In this document: positions 397 to 7,353 of the stretch, one piece after another
How the letters are laid out: each line of letters starts with the position of its first letter
Numbering within the stretch: position 1 is the first letter of the stretch
Source: a virus
DNA length: 23,188 nt
IMG/VR virus record: IMGVR_UViG_3300043409_001721
Span: 1 to 23,188 of that record
Strand: one strand, 5' to 3'
Notes under the pieces: generated by a model
Told to the model about the DNA's origin: nothing
The model's database searches: none
Seen by the model: only the letters and a program-made list of their open reading frames with translations
Program-made: the position numbers and the translations under genes

Positions 397-2915
397 TTGA
401 GCGCGTCCGTGATCAAATCAATGACCTCATTGAGCAGCGTCTTGTTTTGCTCGATTGCCTTTGTAAATGCCGCGCTTGGCGTTTCCACTCTGTAAGATAC
501 AAGCCCGGCTCTTTGTAGCGACTCGCTCAAAGCGTGGCCGAATAACGATAGTATTTCCGGAGTCACTTTCCCGCCTGCGTTTTGGACCGCCCGTTTTACC
601 GCTTCTTTTGCGGCCTGCAGCCCTTTGTTGTATTGCTCTTGCGGTATTCGCTTCATGGATGCGCCAACAAACTGCGTCCCGGTTGGGGTAACTGCAATGA
701 TCTCTTTTGCTCCTGTTTTGGCTGTCATGTTGTAGTCGCCCAGACTAAGATTTGCTTCCTCTGCGCCTGGGTGGTTGTGAACTATCACGTTCCCGCGCAT
801 CACGTTCATTTCCCTGTCGGCAAACTCTACATGTGATGCCCCGCCAGTTTTCCTAAAGATTTCCTTACCGGTTGCGGGGTCGTATATAAGCGCACTTTCA
901 ATATTGCGTTTTTTACCAACGCTCTGCACATAATCCAGTGCGTCCGTGTGAATTTGCGGCCTTGGTGGTGCAGTGTATTTTGTTTTCAACTGGTCTAGCG
1001 TTAACGGCCTGCCAGCCCCATTCGTGAGCTGTGCCAGGGTAATCTTTCCCGACCGGAACAAGTCGGCTCGGCCCTTGCCTAAGACTTCTTCGACCTTTTC
1101 TGCGGGCTGGCGCTCAAGCCATTCAGTGAATGTGGTTCTTGCGGAAATAGGGCCGTCTGCGCTTGCTCGCTGCCCACTGGGCGGAGAATCAAATACTTGG
1201 GGAACCAACAGGCATCGGCAGTTATGAGTTACAATTCCATTTGCCACATACCACCCTTTTTCTGTTTCGAGGTTGTACACATAGCCATGAAAATCGACAC
1301 GCTCAACACTCATGATTTGATCGCTCGCCACGTTGCCGGCGCTTCCTGCAAGCAAATCGCCCGCGAGCTTGGCGTAGGCATCAGTTGCGTTATCCGTAGA
1401 CTCAACGCCGCTGGTGTTGATACCGCTCGCCGTGTCGTGCCGGTAGATATGGTTAACGCTTTGCGTATCTATCATGCTGGCGTCGGGATTTCTGGAATTG
1501 CGGAACGCATGGGAGTTAGCCGCATGGTTATGGTTCGCGCCTTCGCTGACGCCGGAATCAAAACCCGCAACCGTGGAGAGCAGCAATCCGCACGAATGGC
1601 AGCGGCCACCCCAGAGCAGCGAAAACAGCTCGCTAGCCGTGCGCATGATGCTATTCGTGGCAAGCCCGCCAATTTTCAGAGACTCGCCAAGTCTGCGCAA
1701 ACCAGAGAGAGAACCCAGGCGGTTAAAATTTCCAAATCCGAGGTCATGCTTTGCAACATGCTTGCGGCGCGAGGTATTGAATTCACCACTCAAAAGGCTT
1801 TTGGCCCATACAATTGCGACATCGCTGCCGATCCCGTCGCCGTGGAAGTCGCGGGCGGTCACTGGCATTGGCACGGGGCGCACCTTGCCAGAACCGAACG
1901 CCGATTCAATCACATCATGAATTGTGGTTGGCACGTCTTGATGGTCGCCGTTAATGCCGGCTCGCCCATGACTCAAGCGGTCGCTGATTATGTTGCCGCC
2001 TACATCAAGCAAGCCCGCAGCAACCCATCCGCGCCCCGTGAGTATCGGGTGATTTGGGGTGCAGGTCAGTTTTCGACCAGCGGCGGTCTGAATGACGACA
2101 ACTTCTCCATCGAACCACCGTTTACTGTAACCCGTGACATCACCACCGGACGTTATTACCGCATCGCCCGTTAAGCAGTTGAAATGCAAAGGATAACGGG
2201 GCATTGGAAAATTATGGCCTATCGGAGTCCCGTCTTTTTCCCATTCAAGCCCATCCAACGGCGCACATCGCGTGCAGGTATTCGTGTCAAGCGTAGCAAC
2301 TGCGCGGTATCGCTTGATGATGTCTGCGTTGGCCTCAAACATCGCCATGCGAGCGTCATTTGCAACAGTCGCCGTGCTGGTCTGCACCAGTGCAGCAGCG
2401 TTTGCTCTGGATACATCCATGAATTGCAGAACCCGCCGGATGATCTGCTGATTTGTTTCCCCGGCGGCGATCCCTTGTCTCACAGCGCCATTAAACCGAA
2501 AAACAGTATCCGCAGATTGACGGCTCCACCAGTCTGATTGAACCGCACCTTGGATAATGGAATCACCGGCAAGCGTGCGCAGGAAGTCATCAGATAAACG
2601 CGTGATCTGCGACTCAGTCACAAGGAGCGTTGCAGCGGTTGCGGTAGCTGTTACGTTTGCGATACCCGCCATCGCTTCAATGGATACATCAGCCGCCCGT
2701 GCGTAATACTCCTGTATCAATGTCCGGGTTTCGCGTAGCTGCTGATTTGTGCGAGTGCGTGACCATTCAGTGATCGTATTGCCTGCCAGCTTACCCAACA
2801 GCTCCCGCTCAAGCGTTCGGAGTATGTCCAGCACCTCCGATTCCACACTGGCAGCAGTGCGGAACAGATCCAATTGCAAATCGACGGCATCGTCGAAAAT
2901 GCGGTTAATTGCCAC
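393..2915 (-). CDS. MuF-type head morphogenesis protein with intein and JAMM-like C-terminal domain
   Basis: The start is GTG at 2915, with GAGG 7 bases upstream, and it overlaps the portal stop by 11 bases. The precursor is 840 residues. Residues about 1-246 are the N-extein with the MuF domain, ending in PLHFN. Residues 247-565 are an intein. Residues 566-840 are the C-extein, opening with CRCLLVP. After splicing the mature protein would be about 521 residues with PLHFN-CRC rejoined, the usual MuF motif (NCRC). MuF proteins are minor head proteins found inside the capsid or at the portal. Near the C-terminus, HNHP (residues 713-716) followed by S724 and D727, with E697 upstream, resembles the JAMM/MPN metalloprotease motif, though spacing to the Asp is one residue longer than the canonical H-x-H-x10-D. 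Phage MuF proteins are known to carry variable C-terminal toxin-like domains, and this may be one. MuF and intein calls are strong; the JAMM-like call is moderate. Confidence 0.92.
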   Translation of the reverse strand: MAINRIFDDAVDLQLDLFRTAASVESEVLDILRTLERELLGKLAGNTITEWSRTRTNQQLRETRTLIQEYYARAADVSIEAMAGIANVTATATAATLLVTESQITRLSDDFLRTLAGDSIIQGAVQSDWWSRQSADTVFRFNGAVRQGIAAGETNQQIIRRVLQFMDVSRANAAALVQTSTATVANDARMAMFEANADIIKRYRAVATLDTNTCTRCAPLDGLEWEKDGTPIGHNFPMPRYPLHFNCLTGDAVITSGGDVTGYSKRWFDGEVVVIQTAAGRKLTCTPNHPILTGRGWVAAGLLDVGGNIISDRLSHGRAGINGDHQDVPTTIHDVIESAFGSGKVRPVPMPVTARDFHGDGIGSDVAIVWAKSLLSGEFNTSRRKHVAKHDLGFGNFNRLGSLSGLRRLGESLKIGGLATNSIMRTASELFSLLWGGRCHSCGLLLSTVAGFDSGVSEGANHNHAANSHAFRNSRNPDASMIDTQSVNHIYRHDTASGINTSGVESTDNATDAYAKLAGDLLAGSAGNVASDQIMSVERVDFHGYVYNLETEKGWYVANGIVTHNCRCLLVPQVFDSPPSGQRASADGPISARTTFTEWLERQPAEKVEEVLGKGRADLFRSGKITLAQLTNGAGRPLTLDQLKTKYTAPPRPQIHTDALDYVQSVGKKRNIESALIYDPATGKEIFRKTGGASHVEFADREMNVMRGNVIVHNHPGAEEANLSLGDYNMTAKTGAKEIIAVTPTGTQFVGASMKRIPQEQYNKGLQAAKEAVKRAVQNAGGKVTPEILSLFGHALSESLQRAGLVSYRVETPSAAFTKAIEQNKTLLNEVIDLITDALK
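1221..2177 (-). other. Intein in the MuF head protein (319 residues)
   Basis: The intein begins at Cys247 of the precursor (CLTGDAVIT, block A) and ends in HN at 564-565, followed by Cys566 as the +1 nucleophile. Block B is TCTPNHPILTGRGW around residues 284-297, with the conserved TxxH. Block F is the segment around HGYVYNLE (543-550), and block G is GIVTHN. The Hint splicing domain is made of about 65 residues at the N side and about 30 at the C side. The intervening stretch of about 225 residues has no LAGLIDADG or HNH signature and is rich in Gly, Ser, Asn and His. That stretch is the complement of a plus-strand nuclease gene. All standard catalytic residues (C1, block B H, penultimate H, terminal N, +1 C) are present, so splicing competence is expected. 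Insertion at a highly conserved codon cluster of the host gene is typical of homing inteins. Confidence 0.93.
1287..2174 (+). CDS. Vsr/DUF559-like homing endonuclease encoded antisense inside the intein
   Basis: This 295-residue gene lies wholly within the intein on the opposite strand. Residues about 11-40 and 56-92 look like two helix-turn-helix DNA-binding segments. Residues about 150-222 match the PD-(D/E)XK nuclease pattern of Vsr and DUF559 proteins: SE at 151-152, GPYNCD ending in D178, VAVEV with E187, then HWHWH at 192-196 and GWHVLMV at 214-220. Vsr-like (EDxHD) homing endonucleases are established for phage genes and for fractured intein genes, so a role in intein homing is a strong inference. 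Start choice: ATG at 1287 sits just before the first HTH, with GAGG 14 bases upstream, which is far. ATG at 1224, also inside the intein, would add 21 residues with no domain character. A -10-like TACAAT is at 1230-1235 but has no clear -35. The tail after about residue 234 is antisense to the N-terminal splicing domain and has no recognisable fold. Confidence 0.87.
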   Translation: MKIDTLNTHDLIARHVAGASCKQIARELGVGISCVIRRLNAAGVDTARRVVPVDMVNALRIYHAGVGISGIAERMGVSRMVMVRAFADAGIKTRNRGEQQSARMAAATPEQRKQLASRAHDAIRGKPANFQRLAKSAQTRERTQAVKISKSEVMLCNMLAARGIEFTTQKAFGPYNCDIAADPVAVEVAGGHWHWHGAHLARTERRFNHIMNCGWHVLMVAVNAGSPMTQAVADYVAAYIKQARSNPSAPREYRVIWGAGQFSTSGGLNDDNFSIEPPFTVTRDITTGRYYRIAR

Positions 2916-4327: not shown

Positions 4328-5566
4328 TTATACGCCAACCATTCGCGCAAGCGAAACGGGCCGAATAATCGGAAACTTTCGGTGAATATAATATCCTGCG
4401 CAGTCGTTCCAATCATCAATTGACGGATGAGCGCCAGACTTTTCTGGATCTCCCTTGCTGTCGTATCCTTGTGACTCCATAGCGTCAGTCAGTAGCGGGC
4501 ATTTGTATGTGTTAACGCGAAGCCTGCCGTGAGCCAAAAGGGCGTTGATGGAATTCACCCTGTCCCTGACTGCCGGGTTAGCATTAGGCGCATCAACAGT
4601 GTATCCGGCTCGCTGAATCATCTGTACATCAGTCTGACTGGCGTTTGTTGATCTGCCCTGCCCACTAGCGTCTGGATACACGATAACTTTCCTGCCGTCT
4701 GCCCGGTATTTTTCAGCCCTGATTATAAAGTCCTGCGTGTCATGGCTGACAAATTCATCTACAGCTTCAGGGATGCCATTGCTCAACACCCACACCGTTG
4801 CGCAAGTGCCGCCAATGTTAAAGTCCAGCCCGATATTGCAAATCCTATCCGATGCCAGCAATTCCCTGTCCGTGTGGTGCGTCCGGCGATCAAAAAAGTG
4901 GTACACCTTGTTTTGAGACAGGCTTACGAATTCGCCGTTCAGGTACATATCCGCCAGGATCGGGTCGTAGTTGTCCCTGATCTGCTGAATGTAGCCGTCA
5001 GGCAAATAAGGATTGGATGCAGTCGATGCTTTTATCAGCGCATAACCCTTTGATGGATTTTTTACCCATCGCGCATATGTAAAACCGGAATACCCTTGGT
5101 CGGGCGTTGTCACGTTGCCAATTGTGTTCGGCCTGCCACACTGCTGACGATTACGCTCCGAAACCTTGCGCCATACCACTGCGGCTTTGTCTTTTGGCAA
5201 AGTGTCCAGCTCATCAACAATTGAATCCGCAACCTCATAGGCCACGATCCTTTCCGGCCTGTCGTAGCTGCGGAAAATCATGTCGCCGTAGTTTTCCACG
5301 TTCACCACATAATCGCTTCGATTCGTTTTGAATTTCAGCCCTAGCGCAGACAAGATTTCTTCAGTGCCGGATATTGCCCTGCGCCTCAACAGGTCATACG
5401 TCGGCATGTAATACGCCGTGTCGATGCCCGGAGCTGCAAGCATTTTGAGCAATAGGCGCACAATGCCGGCCTGAGTTTTGCCCGAACCCAAGCCAGCCAC
5501 CATCGCCGGGAACGGGTCTTGATGGAATACGAATTGCTCCTGCGGTTCAGTGAGCGCCAGTTCCAT
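4328..5566 (-). CDS. terL: Terminase large subunit
   Basis: The protein has 412 residues from ATG at 5566 and is the ATP-driven DNA-packaging motor with a nuclease that cuts concatemers. The Walker A motif is GLGSGKT at residues 25-31 and Walker B is SIVDE at 115-119. The C-terminal RNase H-like nuclease is marked by GLDFN (D248), VYPDA (D299) and a HPSIDDWNDC segment (D384, D385, D388). Length is in the usual 400-550 range, towards the short end. The start overlaps the end of the small-subunit gene by 20 bases, and 19 bases separate the stop from the portal ATG, so these genes form one operon. Motifs are complete and I see no sign of decay. Confidence 0.95.
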   Translation of the reverse strand: MELALTEPQEQFVFHQDPFPAMVAGLGSGKTQAGIVRLLLKMLAAPGIDTAYYMPTYDLLRRRAISGTEEILSALGLKFKTNRSDYVVNVENYGDMIFRSYDRPERIVAYEVADSIVDELDTLPKDKAAVVWRKVSERNRQQCGRPNTIGNVTTPDQGYSGFTYARWVKNPSKGYALIKASTASNPYLPDGYIQQIRDNYDPILADMYLNGEFVSLSQNKVYHFFDRRTHHTDRELLASDRICNIGLDFNIGGTCATVWVLSNGIPEAVDEFVSHDTQDFIIRAEKYRADGRKVIVYPDASGQGRSTNASQTDVQMIQRAGYTVDAPNANPAVRDRVNSINALLAHGRLRVNTYKCPLLTDAMESQGYDSKGDPEKSGAHPSIDDWNDCAGYYIHRKFPIIRPVSLARMVGV

Positions 5567-5948
5567 TTTCCGGCCTTGTCGCTCTGATGATCTGGATAAC
5601 TTGATCTGGCGTTATGCCTTCAGGCTCTGATGACTTGTCACTCCACCCGAAATTCTTCAGCGCAAAAATGCTGCCGGTCGGTGATGTGCCGTGCAGTTTC
5701 ATCTCGTAATGCCACTCTACAAAAGCCTTCGCTCGCTTTACGGAGTCAGAAAAGCCGTTATATTTCAAGTACTCATCTATTGATTGGCGAGATGAAAAAC
5801 CGAGATATAAAGCAAGCCCCGTCCATGTCACCGGGTATAGTTTTGCTTCACAAAAACGCTGGTATTCTTCGACTTTCGCGTCGAATTGTTCTGGCGTTTC
5901 GTACAGGCGCGGCCTGCCGTTTGCCTTTGGTATAAGGTTTTTTGCCAT
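5547..5948 (-). CDS. terS: Terminase small subunit
   Basis: The protein has 133 residues from ATG at 5948, preceded by AGGGG four bases upstream. A longer frame reaching 6077 would cross the likely promoter and has a non-conserved leader. The sequence starts MAKNLIPKANGRPRLYETPE. A helical DNA-binding region follows (TWTGLALYLGFSSRQSI), then a segment ending FALKNFGWSDK, a pattern typical of phage small terminases. It recognises the packaging site and feeds DNA to the large subunit. The C-terminal tail about PDQVIQII probably contacts TerL. It is the first gene of the minus-strand packaging and head operon and is divergent from the plus-strand accessory cassette. Confidence 0.85.
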   Translation of the reverse strand: MAKNLIPKANGRPRLYETPEQFDAKVEEYQRFCEAKLYPVTWTGLALYLGFSSRQSIDEYLKYNGFSDSVKRAKAFVEWHYEMKLHGTSPTGSIFALKNFGWSDKSSEPEGITPDQVIQIIRATRPENGTGAH

Positions 5949-5991
5949 GTGACCCCTGGTCAAAATGCGGCCCCTCAAGGGCTGTGCTCGC

Positions 5992-5997
5992 ATTATA
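5992..5997 (-). promoter_or_regulatory. Likely -10 box for the packaging/head operon
   Basis: A perfect TATAAT lies on the minus strand 44 bases upstream of the terS ATG. No good TTGACA is found at 16-18 bases; a TGGACA is present at about 20 bases spacing. A late gene activator might compensate for the weak -35. The location in the divergent gap supports it. Confidence 0.45.
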
Positions 5998-6064
5998 CAC
6001 GCTCTTGTGTCACTGCATGTCCAGCGACTACCTAAATTATTTTCTGCATTCCTTAAAATAGTTG

Positions 6065-6093
6065 TTGCATCACGCATATACCTGCATTACATT
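6065..6093 (+). promoter_or_regulatory. Candidate promoter for the plus-strand accessory cassette
   Basis: TTGCAT at 6065-6070 and TACATT at 6088-6093 are separated by exactly 17 bases; each matches the sigma-70 consensus at four of six positions. The first gene starts at 6136. Four TGCAT pentamers lie in the same gap (6014, 6045, 6066, 6083) and might be regulator contacts, although their spacing is irregular. Confidence 0.4.
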
Positions 6094-6101
6094 TACTCCA
6101 T

Positions 6102-6117
6102 GCCGGCAACCGCTGGC
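6102..6117 (+). repeat. Hairpin H1, copy 1, upstream of first cassette gene
   Basis: GCCGGC-AACC-GCTGGC folds as a six-pair stem (one G-U) with a four-base loop, just ahead of the ribosome site of the 56-aa gene. The same 18 bases occur again at 6350-6367 ahead of the second gene. Confidence 0.6.
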
Positions 6118-6135
6118 CCAGACGGGAGAGACAAC

Positions 6136-6306
6136 ATGACACAGGTACAACAAAACAAGATTATCCAAGCCATTGCAGAATGCAGCCGCTACATTGAAAA
6201 AGAACAGGCCCACCGCGCAGACCTTCGACCTGCCGATGTAGCTCAACATTTAGAGTTTTGCATTCAACACCGCGCAAAACTTCAGGCCATGCTGGCAGCA
6301 GACTAA
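6136..6306 (+). CDS. Small helical protein, first gene of accessory cassette
   Basis: The product is 56 residues from ATG at 6136, with GGGAGAG upstream at good spacing. It begins MTQVQQNKIIQAIAEC and appears fully helical, with many Gln, Glu, Ala and Arg residues, two Cys, no membrane segment and no signal peptide. I cannot assign a family. It is the first of four small plus-strand genes lying between the lysis and packaging operons, both of which run on the other strand. Such inserted, oppositely oriented small genes are often accessory (moron-like) functions. A hairpin precedes its ribosome site and another follows its stop codon. Confidence 0.72.
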   Translation: MTQVQQNKIIQAIAECSRYIEKEQAHRADLRPADVAQHLEFCIQHRAKLQAMLAAD

Positions 6307-6313
6307 CCCCACC

Positions 6314-6327
6314 GGCCAAGGATGGCC
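6314..6327 (+). repeat. Hairpin H2, copy 1, after first cassette gene
   Basis: GGCCA-AGGA-TGGCC is a perfect five-pair stem with a four-base loop just after the stop of the 56-aa gene. It lies in a 15-base sequence repeated at 6626-6640 after the second gene. No T-run follows, so it is not a standard terminator. Confidence 0.6.
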
Positions 6328-6349
6328 ACACACACACATACCCCCCCCC
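6327..6349 (+). repeat. CA dinucleotide tract and C9 homopolymer
   Basis: Six CA units (6327-6338) are followed by TA and a run of nine C (6341-6349) in the gap before the second cassette gene. Such simple tracts are prone to slippage. Here they lie in untranslated leader, so any length change would alter spacing and not reading frame. Confidence 0.7.
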
Positions 6350-6365
6350 GCCGGCAACCGCTGGC
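6350..6365 (+). repeat. Hairpin H1, copy 2, upstream of second cassette gene
   Basis: This is an identical copy of the stem-loop at 6102-6117. It is followed by GAGGAGAG and the ATG of the 78-aa gene. Confidence 0.6.
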
Positions 6366-6383
6366 CCCAAGAGGAGAGAAAAA

Positions 6384-6620
6384 ATGATTCAGATCGACAA
6401 AAACTTGAACGTAATTCAAGACAATCAGCGAACAGGCTATGTGGTATTAAATGCCGGCAAAGTAGGCGCGACTCCAATGCTTTGCGCTGGCGTCGGTAGC
6501 TGCTCAGTAAAGCGTGGCCGCGTAGTGCATAACGTGCGTGCTACCTACAAACAAGTGCAGGTGACGCTACCGCTGACTGATCAGAGTTTCGCTGCCGCTG
6601 TCCGCGCAGTAAAAGCCTAA
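6384..6620 (+). CDS. Small unknown protein, second gene of accessory cassette
   Basis: The product is 78 residues from ATG at 6384, with a strong GAGGAG upstream. The N-terminal half alternates hydrophobic and polar residues as in beta strands (QRTGYVVLNAGKVG), followed by CAGVGSCSVKRGRVV and a final helix. It is basic, with two Cys three residues apart from a Gly-Ser turn, and it has no membrane segment. I do not recognise the family. It shares flanking hairpins with the gene before it, which suggests the two units spread or were copied as cassettes with common flanks, though the proteins themselves are unrelated. Confidence 0.7.
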   Translation: MIQIDKNLNVIQDNQRTGYVVLNAGKVGATPMLCAGVGSCSVKRGRVVHNVRATYKQVQVTLPLTDQSFAAAVRAVKA

Positions 6621-6627
6621 CCACCCC

Positions 6628-6640
6628 GGCCAAGGATGGC
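6628..6640 (+). repeat. Hairpin H2, copy 2, after second cassette gene
   Basis: This is the second copy of the CCGGCCAAGGATGGC element (6626-6640). Here the stem shortens to GCCA/TGGC because the outer base has changed. It lies six bases after the stop region of the 78-aa gene. Confidence 0.5.
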
Positions 6641-6661
6641 ACACCTAACAGGAGATAAGCC

Positions 6662-6928
6662 ATGTTTATCAATTACAGCACACAGACCGGCCTTAGTATC
6701 AACACATTCCGCACGCCATCCGGCTATGCAAATAGCGACATCATCGGCCTTGTAGATGATATTTGCGCTGGTAAAGATAGCTGCTGCCCGCTTGATGGTT
6801 CAAAGGCTGCACTTGAAGATGGCAGTTTGTGGGCAGAATGCCCGGATGAAACCCTTGAGGATTTGCACGCACTGATCTGTGAGCATGAAAAAAACGCTAT
6901 AGGAAATAAAAGCAATACAGACAAATAA
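6662..6928 (+). CDS. Small acidic protein, third gene of accessory cassette
   Basis: The product is 88 residues from ATG at 6662, with GGAG seven bases upstream. It is acidic, with a run of Asp and Glu around EDGSLWAECPDETLEDL, and has four Cys, including the adjacent pair in DSCCPLDG. There is no transmembrane segment. I do not recognise a family. Small acidic proteins in phage accessory operons are sometimes DNA mimics or inhibitors of host defence, but nothing in this sequence proves that. The gene sits 16 bases before the ribbon-helix-helix gene and is probably co-transcribed with it. Confidence 0.72.
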   Translation: MFINYSTQTGLSINTFRTPSGYANSDIIGLVDDICAGKDSCCPLDGSKAALEDGSLWAECPDETLEDLHALICEHEKNAIGNKSNTDK

Positions 6929-6944
6929 AAAAGGAGCAAATGGC

Positions 6945-7118
6945 ATGATAAAGCGTAAACTAGGCAGACCGAAATCAATAAACCCGCGCCAAAACGTCCG
7001 CATAAGACTGCCACAATCAACGCTAGACGGAGTTGATAGTTTGGTGGGGGGTATCTACCCAGACCGTACAGCAGTGATTGAAGCGGCAATAATCGCTTTT
7101 CTGGAGCCGAAGGAATGA
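6945..7118 (+). CDS. Ribbon-helix-helix DNA-binding protein
   Basis: The product is 57 residues from ATG at 6945, with AAGGAG eight bases upstream. An ATG at 6940 hits a stop after two codons. The basic N-terminus (MIKRKLGRPKS) is followed by NVRIRLPQSTLDGVDSLV and then YPDRTAVIEAAIIAFLE. This is the strand-helix-helix pattern of CopG/Arc-type repressors. It is the last gene of the four-gene cassette, a position typical of autorepressors that control small accessory operons, including anti-CRISPR operons. Its likely target is the cassette promoter near 6065-6093. The stop lies four bases from the convergent lipoprotein stop. Confidence 0.8.
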   Translation: MIKRKLGRPKSINPRQNVRIRLPQSTLDGVDSLVGGIYPDRTAVIEAAIIAFLEPKE

Positions 7119-7122
7119 AACC

Positions 7123-7353
7123 CTAGCGATTACAAGCGGCTACCAGTTGTGCCAATTGTTCTGGGGTAACGGATTGCCCCTTCGGCAGCTCTATCCTTGA
7201 GTACACGGCGGTGGATTTTGTCCACACGGGCCTGATCTCCACATTCGCGCAGAGTACCCCGTTGTCTGTTTCGTCAATGCCTATACTGTTTTCCAGACTT
7301 AGCCCCTGACAGCCTGCCAGAACGATCACAGACGCGATTACAGCAGCTTTCAC
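7123..7353 (-). CDS. Small outer-membrane-type lipoprotein
   Basis: The product is 76 residues from GTG at 7353, overlapping the previous stop as GTGA. A short hydrophobic signal (MKAAVIASVIVLAGC) ends in the lipobox LAGC, so Cys15 should be lipidated, as in Gram-negative hosts. The mature part has a second Cys pair and ends QLVAACNR. It is the last gene of the lysis block, where an outer-membrane spanin is often found. However, it is not proline-rich like Rz1 and no inner-membrane spanin partner is visible next to it, so that role is only a guess. The acyl-chain signal is clear; the function is not. Confidence 0.8.
   Translation of the reverse strand: MKAAVIASVIVLAGCQGLSLENSIGIDETDNGVLCANVEIRPVWTKSTAVYSRIELPKGQSVTPEQLAQLVAACNR

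Follow-up and report, generated by a model that had tools for sequence, protein, structure and literature searches.

The stretch of DNA analysed here (the window) is a virus record of 23,188 bases, probably a fragment. Between its lysis genes and the gene for the terminase small subunit (terS), four small open reading frames, each preceded by a Shine-Dalgarno (SD) sequence, occupy positions 6136-7118 of the plus strand and oppose minus-strand neighbours on either side, as the preliminary description had noted (Table 1). To the left lie terS (PHROG 606, E=6e-21) and the genes for TerL, portal and MuF; to the right are a putative Rz1-like spanin (a weak match, E=0.005), a DUF1353 protein, a PHROG-3108 protein and a holin, followed further right by NinG, NinB, an O-like replication protein, RecT and an exonuclease. 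The flanks had been taken for late operons; they do run on the opposite strand, but are rather one minus-strand replication-Nin-lysis-terminase block with the cassette placed between lysis and terS. The stop codon of gene 4 at 7118 nearly abuts the convergent spanin stop at 7123. The claim that genes 1-3 resemble no known family holds, with no notable Pfam or PHROG match, and the acidity of the gene 3 product was confirmed. A tblastn search of 50,697 phage records matched none of proteins 1-3, a pattern search combined with tblastn returned no relatives of genes 2 and 3 in viral contigs, and structure prediction gave no usable model for gene 2 (pLDDT 39). Further to the left, the MuF head protein gene contains an intein that is absent from the related contigs L002-L004; inside it lies an opposite-strand reading frame of 295 aa, which, judging from its signatures, is probably a homing endonuclease encoded antisense to its intein.

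Table 1. Features of the cassette and its surroundings. Positions refer to the window unless another contig is named.
Feature	Position	Strand	Evidence or remark
MuF intein, about 319 aa (residues 247-565; gene at 393-2915)	1221-2177	-	PF14890
ORF inside the intein, 295 aa	1287-2171	+	HTH and REase_MTES_1575/Vsr-like signatures
terS, window	5547-5963	-	
terS, siblings	L002 4967-5332; L004 4081-4464		
Mom-family genes, each with a ParB-domain gene	L002 4227-4967; L004 3362-4078		Between cassette promoter and terS
Fixed promoter and leader; on the opposite strand it also precedes terS	5941-6135	+	blastn to siblings, alignment
Candidate operator TATTTT-N11-AAAATA, low confidence	6038-6060		Perfect 6-bp inverted repeat; in window, L002 and L004, not in L105
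Putative promoter TTGCAT-17-TACATT	6065-6093	+	Inspection and sibling alignment; weak consensus match
Type A hairpin GCCGGC-AACC-GCTGGC, predicted mRNA 5' end	6102-6117	+	Conserved in siblings; predicted fold
Gene 1, 56 aa	6136-6306	+	ORF with SD; homologue not found; no recognised family
Type B hairpin GGCC-AAGGAT-GGCC, after gene 1 stop	6314-6327	+	Model R1, E=3.4e-8 over 6306-6333
Second type A copy, before gene 2	6350-6365	+	55-nt direct repeat of gene 1 leader, 76%
Gene 2, 78 aa	6384-6620	+	ORF with SD; homologue not found; no recognised family
Type B hairpin GCC-AAGGAT-GGC (3 bp), after gene 2 stop	6629-6640	+	Model R1, E=2.9e-5 over 6620-6647
Gene 3, 88 aa, acidic	6662-6928	+	ORF with SD; homologue not found; no recognised family
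Gene 4, ribbon-helix-helix (RHH) DNA-binding protein, 57 aa; likely autorepressor	6945-7118	+	Kept at the same position in L002, L004 and L105; RHH_1 matches; AlphaFold model

A TerL search returned 80 related contigs, among which only L002, L004 and L105 (the siblings) contain homologues of the RHH gene. Across the left junction, blastn aligned positions 5941-6139 with L002 at 94.5% identity, 5941-6119 with L004 at 88.9% and 6023-6117 with L105 at 84.5%. This similarity of promoter and leader stops at the ATG of gene 1; it restarts at 6932-6946, where the RHH gene begins, and continues into the lysis genes at 78-88%, with the stretch just past the RHH gene finding no match in L002. Between the two start codons no coding sequence is common to the siblings and only short leader repeats match, while the flanks of the variable block are 78-95% identical. 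The payload comprises three other small genes in L002, about six in L004 and a single one in L105, and the gene directly before the RHH gene is different in every sibling. Because the leader is conserved up to the ATG, the coding sequence behind it is unshared and similarity returns at the RHH start codon, the cassette is, as read from these alignments, a moron-type accessory operon of hypervariable content, in which the promoter and the terminal RHH gene are fixed: an extra gene set that varies among close relatives between constant flanks. The cassette had also been called inserted, a term that we abandon, since the search met no empty site and a cassette is also present in each of the three siblings that have the same junction.

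Beyond the promoter, away from the cassette, L002 and L004 each carry a ParB-domain gene together with a Mom-family gene (PF25680); the window has neither, and a different terS takes this place in it. The two Mom-family genes are of different kinds (E=3e-55 and 7e-43). The terS types of the window, L002 and L004 are themselves unrelated though the TerL proteins are 97-98% identical, which represents a terS swap.

The RHH assignment of gene 4 was examined by the homology and neighbourhood search that the preliminary description had suggested. Homologues of 68-79% identity end the cassettes of the three siblings, and gene 4 is a real gene on this account. All four members of the family match RHH_1 (PF01402), the best being a homologue with E=3.6e-4; the window copy scores E=0.018 and 15.4 bits, below the curated cut-off of 20.5. 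In the AlphaFold model (pLDDT 72) helices 24-37 and 41-53 follow the sequence VRIRLP, as expected for an RHH protein, and the expected strand is not formed in this monomer. The top PDB match in a fold search was NikR, an RHH protein, at an insignificant score, and a sequence search of the PDB found no relatives. The terminal gene can be called RHH-like, with weak profile support for the window copy. Hairpin-bearing cassettes that oppose terS also occur in two more distant TerL relatives, L357 and L360; the RHH candidate there is a different one, Arc-like (PHROG 582, E=0.0027), and is the last gene in L360 and the third of five in L357.

Given the terminal position of its gene, the RHH protein probably represses its own promoter, an assignment we hold with modest confidence. 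The sole operator candidate for it is the inverted repeat TATTTT-N11-AAAATA, retained in three of the four phages. The proposed promoter hexamers TTGCAT and TACATT were not picked up by a promoter consensus scan. A palindrome, TGACCYCTGGTCA, is located at about 5952-5965, just upstream of the first leftward (terS-side) gene, in the window, L002 and L004. RHH antitoxins are common, and gene 4 matches a PHROG antitoxin weakly (E=0.39 for the window, 0.025 for L002), so that a type II toxin-antitoxin module with the RHH protein as antitoxin was considered as well; it is highly improbable, as the changing gene in front of the RHH gene leaves no fixed toxin partner and no toxin family was matched.

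The preliminary description made no mention of the RNA hairpins, which are the more unusual feature of the cassette. In the window and the three siblings the type A sequence, CATGCC[A/G]GCAACCGCTGGC, directly follows the predicted promoter; it recurs in L086, L087 and L098 after a promoter unrelated to that one, which makes two unrelated promoters in total. In these six contigs the hairpin is identical to that of the window or differs by one wobble change, the variable stem base being a G or an A that faces U, so that stem pairing is kept. A 19-mer of type A precedes another gene in L361, L362 and L364, and occurs in L363 apparently by chance inside a coding frame. One payload gene (MLTKNCEPP...) is found after type A in L004, after type B in L098 and after neither in L086, with the joins falling a few bases before the ATG; another (MIIRTYED...) is preceded by type A in two different phages, L002 and L098. 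The occurrence of these genes behind differing leaders or in different phages suggests that the leaders act as joints for exchange.

Type B hairpins have the general form GGCC-A[A/C]GGA[T/C]-GGCC and lie between a stop codon and an SD sequence, with stem variants GGCC, GCGCC, GGGCC, TGCGC and CGCC. The 15-mer CCGGCCAAGGATGGC occurs in more than 100 viral contigs, where many hits are chance coding matches; a stop codon before the site and an SD and start with a reading frame after it accompany 22 of 104 distinct CCGGCCAAGGATGGC sites in the sense orientation as against one in antisense. When intercistronic hairpins before an SD and ATG were collected from the TerL relatives with the loop unspecified, ACGGAC was the only recurrent hexaloop (six sites, two stems) and AAGGAC occurred once; both are among the most enriched hexaloops in a scan for any hairpin in the same contigs. 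Likewise, with stem and flanks fixed and the loop left free, the sites in viral contigs between stop and SD had ACGGAC five times and AAGGAC once. At least one intercistronic site, in L259, is an exception that lacks GGA, its loop being ACTACC. As competitors, the loops ACAACC and ACTACC were rejected, nearly all of their occurrences falling inside one long coding frame. In a set of 37 sites, pre-selected by loop pattern and stem, changes on both sides affect five of the six stem pairs, a level that none of 500 shuffles reached. The alignment behind the covariance model R1 was chosen with the pattern CA.GGA[CT]G, which makes its loop invariant by construction. Single-sequence folding pairs A with U within the AAGGAT loop.

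Model R1 finds 1-8 type B copies in other uncultured phages; Plesiomonas phage phiP4-7 and a Kagunavirus gave no match. Queries with both hairpin elements gave only chance-level matches in cultured phages, and no host was inferred that way. In Rfam, no covariance model matched positions 5900-7200 at E<=5, and no paper on recurrent hairpins between phage genes came up in a literature search. A pattern scan of GTDB returned 11 type B matches; one, in a Candidatus Thiosymbion genome (L342), is convincing by context, and the others are apparently coding or have no start downstream. In the family of this organism 2 of 116 genomes match R1, one of them (L367) ahead of a terminator-like hairpin instead of a gene. 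Candidatus Thiosymbion MAG contigs that are possibly prophage or viral (L355, near 3700, and L354) contain several type B-like elements in the neighbourhood of SSB and recombination genes. In another phage group (L111, L130, L135, L137, L149, L163, L167, L178 and others) CCGGCCAAGGATGGC likewise follows a stop codon; there it is succeeded by TATAAATAG, a late-promoter-like sequence, and not directly by an SD. Type B looks like a recurrent, strand-oriented phage element that has not been catalogued.

Short repeated sequences, some of them inverted repeats, are known from the translation starts of a subset of genes in Cluster K mycobacteriophages (SAS/ESAS; PMC3203893), and the cassette hairpins resemble them in preceding some phage genes. 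SAS, however, is a 13-bp sequence, GGGATAGGAGCCC, at the start site itself, whereas GGCC-ANGGAY-GGCC precedes an SD that is distinct from it, in numerous unrelated contigs; on reading the cassette leaders we met AGGAGA or GGGAGA and GGCC hairpins, and not GGGATAGGAGCCC.

A closer likeness is to the binding sites of CsrA/RsmA. The RsmA consensus is CANGGAYG and the CsrA SELEX consensus RUACARGGAUGU (PMC7705225); high-affinity sites mostly have stems of at most 4 bp and GGA in six-nucleotide loops, RsmE prefers and contacts ANGGAN, and the dimer on glgC is tethered by a hairpin immediately before the SD, from which it bridges to the SD, a mechanism that works over 10-63 nt (PMC7652899). Both type B copies of the window, and the recurrent loops ACGGAC, AAGGAC and AAGGAT, present CANGGAYG in a short hairpin whose loop contains the GGA. 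Like the glgC and hcnA leader hairpins and the CsrB repeats, type B combines an ANGGAN hexaloop closed by C-G with a short stem, lies just upstream of an SD and has a second GGA within that SD. The spacing from loop GGA to SD GGA has a median of 13 nt (range 9-33) and is at least 10 nt in 31 of 33 sites; some spacings, of 9 nt, fall short of the bridging range. Unlike the known sites, type B is found in intercistronic gaps of phages, its 4-bp GC stem is strongly conserved and its ligand is putative. The Candidatus Thiosymbion genome with the sole GTDB match convincing by context encodes CsrA. A phage-encoded CsrA was discarded as ligand, no CsrA gene being present in 37 phage records, and the ligand would accordingly be that of the host. 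From these sequence features we infer, tentatively and at somewhat less than even probability, that host CsrA/RsmA binds the type B hairpins. Literature searches on CsrA/RsmA and phage mRNA returned nothing on an element of this kind.

A local structural element, serving as mRNA stabiliser, processing site, read-through insulator or standby site with the AAGGA loop, deserves the same tentative weight. The location right after a stop codon and before an SD would suit all of these roles, and related 15-mers occur in phages whose hosts possibly lack CsrA. Yet the loop holds A.GGA with variation at positions 2 and 6, as CsrA/RsmA sites do, ACGGAC would pair poorly with the anti-SD, and RNase or insulator roles require no fixed loop.

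As to the payload, the preliminary description had put forward an anti-defence locus. The accessory nature of the cassette, its conserved RHH end and the wholesale replacement of its payload agree with this proposal, but no family match does: the 27 cassette proteins of the window, the siblings and three more distant relatives were compared with Pfam, PHROGs, NCBIfam and PADLOC and yielded MazG, DNA-binding proteins and families of no assigned function; none matched a family known for defence, anti-defence or anti-CRISPR activity. This absence is weak evidence, as the majority of anti-defence proteins belong to no recognised family, and the Mom genes next door and the rapid turnover keep the idea alive. 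Payload replacement of this extent between near-identical phages is as expected of anti-defence or moron loci, and two kinds of Mom across the same promoter fit an anti-defence neighbourhood. That at least one cassette gene acts against host defences is plausible, if short of an even chance.

In acr-aca operons, too, unrelated small payload genes are joined to a conserved DNA-binding gene and recombine around this constant regulator. The cassette might accordingly block CRISPR or restriction defences right after infection, with the RHH protein as Aca and type B as incidental insulators. Its small genes of no known family ending in a DNA-binding gene, the exchanged payload and the Mom genes across the promoter would all agree, and there is a precedent in archaeal viruses, in which unrelated early genes sharing a conserved upstream regulatory sequence were predicted to be anti-defence genes (PMC11065993). 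There, though, the shared element is a promoter, whereas that of the cassette is mainly an RNA hairpin inside the operon, known from sequence. The Aca proteins of the AcaFinder survey fall into 12 families, every one of the helix-turn-helix type (PMC9765179); the cassette regulator is RHH-like, no Acr homologue was matched among the 27 proteins, and the conserved RNA hairpins are additional. In other places, the genes close to these hairpins or downstream of them include SSB (in the L355 neighbourhood), MazG and DNA-binding genes, so that a hairpin by itself is no marker of anti-defence. By the tests applied to its sequence, for Acr or anti-defence homologues and for an HTH-type Aca, the cassette is not an acr-aca operon, and a function of that type is unlikely.

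Lambda bor lies opposite the late genes, between the lysis genes and cos/terS, which we take to be the position of the cassette. The locus shares with bor and other lambdoid moron loci its place between lysis and terminase genes, the orientation opposite to late genes and a putative promoter of its own; it departs from bor in being multi-gene and hypervariable and in having its own RHH gene and leader hairpins. Expression mainly from a prophage, as for bor, with superinfection exclusion or host fitness as the outcome, would suit this placement antisense to lytic genes, which is typical of moron loci with their own promoter (PMC7067206), and the lambdoid-like set of O-like protein, NinG, NinB, RecT, exonuclease and holin. 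Neither an integrase nor a repressor was identified in the 23-kb fragment, and we regard this role as rather doubtful, slightly less so than the acr-aca function. By TerL, the phage is nearest to Kagunavirus and Plesiomonas phages.

On the basis of these observations, we propose a moron-type operon in which a constant frame holds an interchangeable payload under RHH repression and CsrA/RsmA-gated translation, a model to which, taken whole, we give even chances. Transcription would start near 6100, so that the mRNA opens with the stable type A hairpin, spans the swappable small genes and ends in the RHH gene adjoining the convergent lysis genes. The RHH protein would most likely repress its own promoter within 5941-6100. 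The type B hairpins, with their C-G-closed ANGGAY hexaloops typically 9-15 nt upstream of the SD, would most likely serve as host CsrA/RsmA sites; as happens in glgC, CsrA/RsmA may then span hairpin and SD, keeping downstream translation low until CsrA is titrated. New genes would arrive by recombination and be joined at the conserved region of leader and start codon, and the payload proteins probably act on the host, in anti-defence, superinfection exclusion or takeover. By analogy, the cassette would work like a moron locus with an Aca-like regulator and CsrA-type leaders.

The accessory operon is real and hypervariable but ordinary in kind; its widespread RNA element is unusual and appears uncatalogued. 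With a single covariance model, the type B tag can be searched for and gives 1-8 copies per phage contig, against chance-level matches in cultured phages, and the arrangement of RHH gene, promoter and payload delimits a defined set of small uncharacterised proteins for defence assays. It is conceivable, though we would not yet favour it, that many uncultured phages share an intercistronic RNA element recruiting host CsrA/RsmA, which would make accessory proteins dependent on host physiology or titrate CsrA, with the leaders as gene joints. If this is true, a short tag would point to the exchangeable host-interaction genes of uncultured phages, in the way that Aca genes flag anti-CRISPRs, and the expression of phage accessory genes would be tied to CsrA/RsmA.
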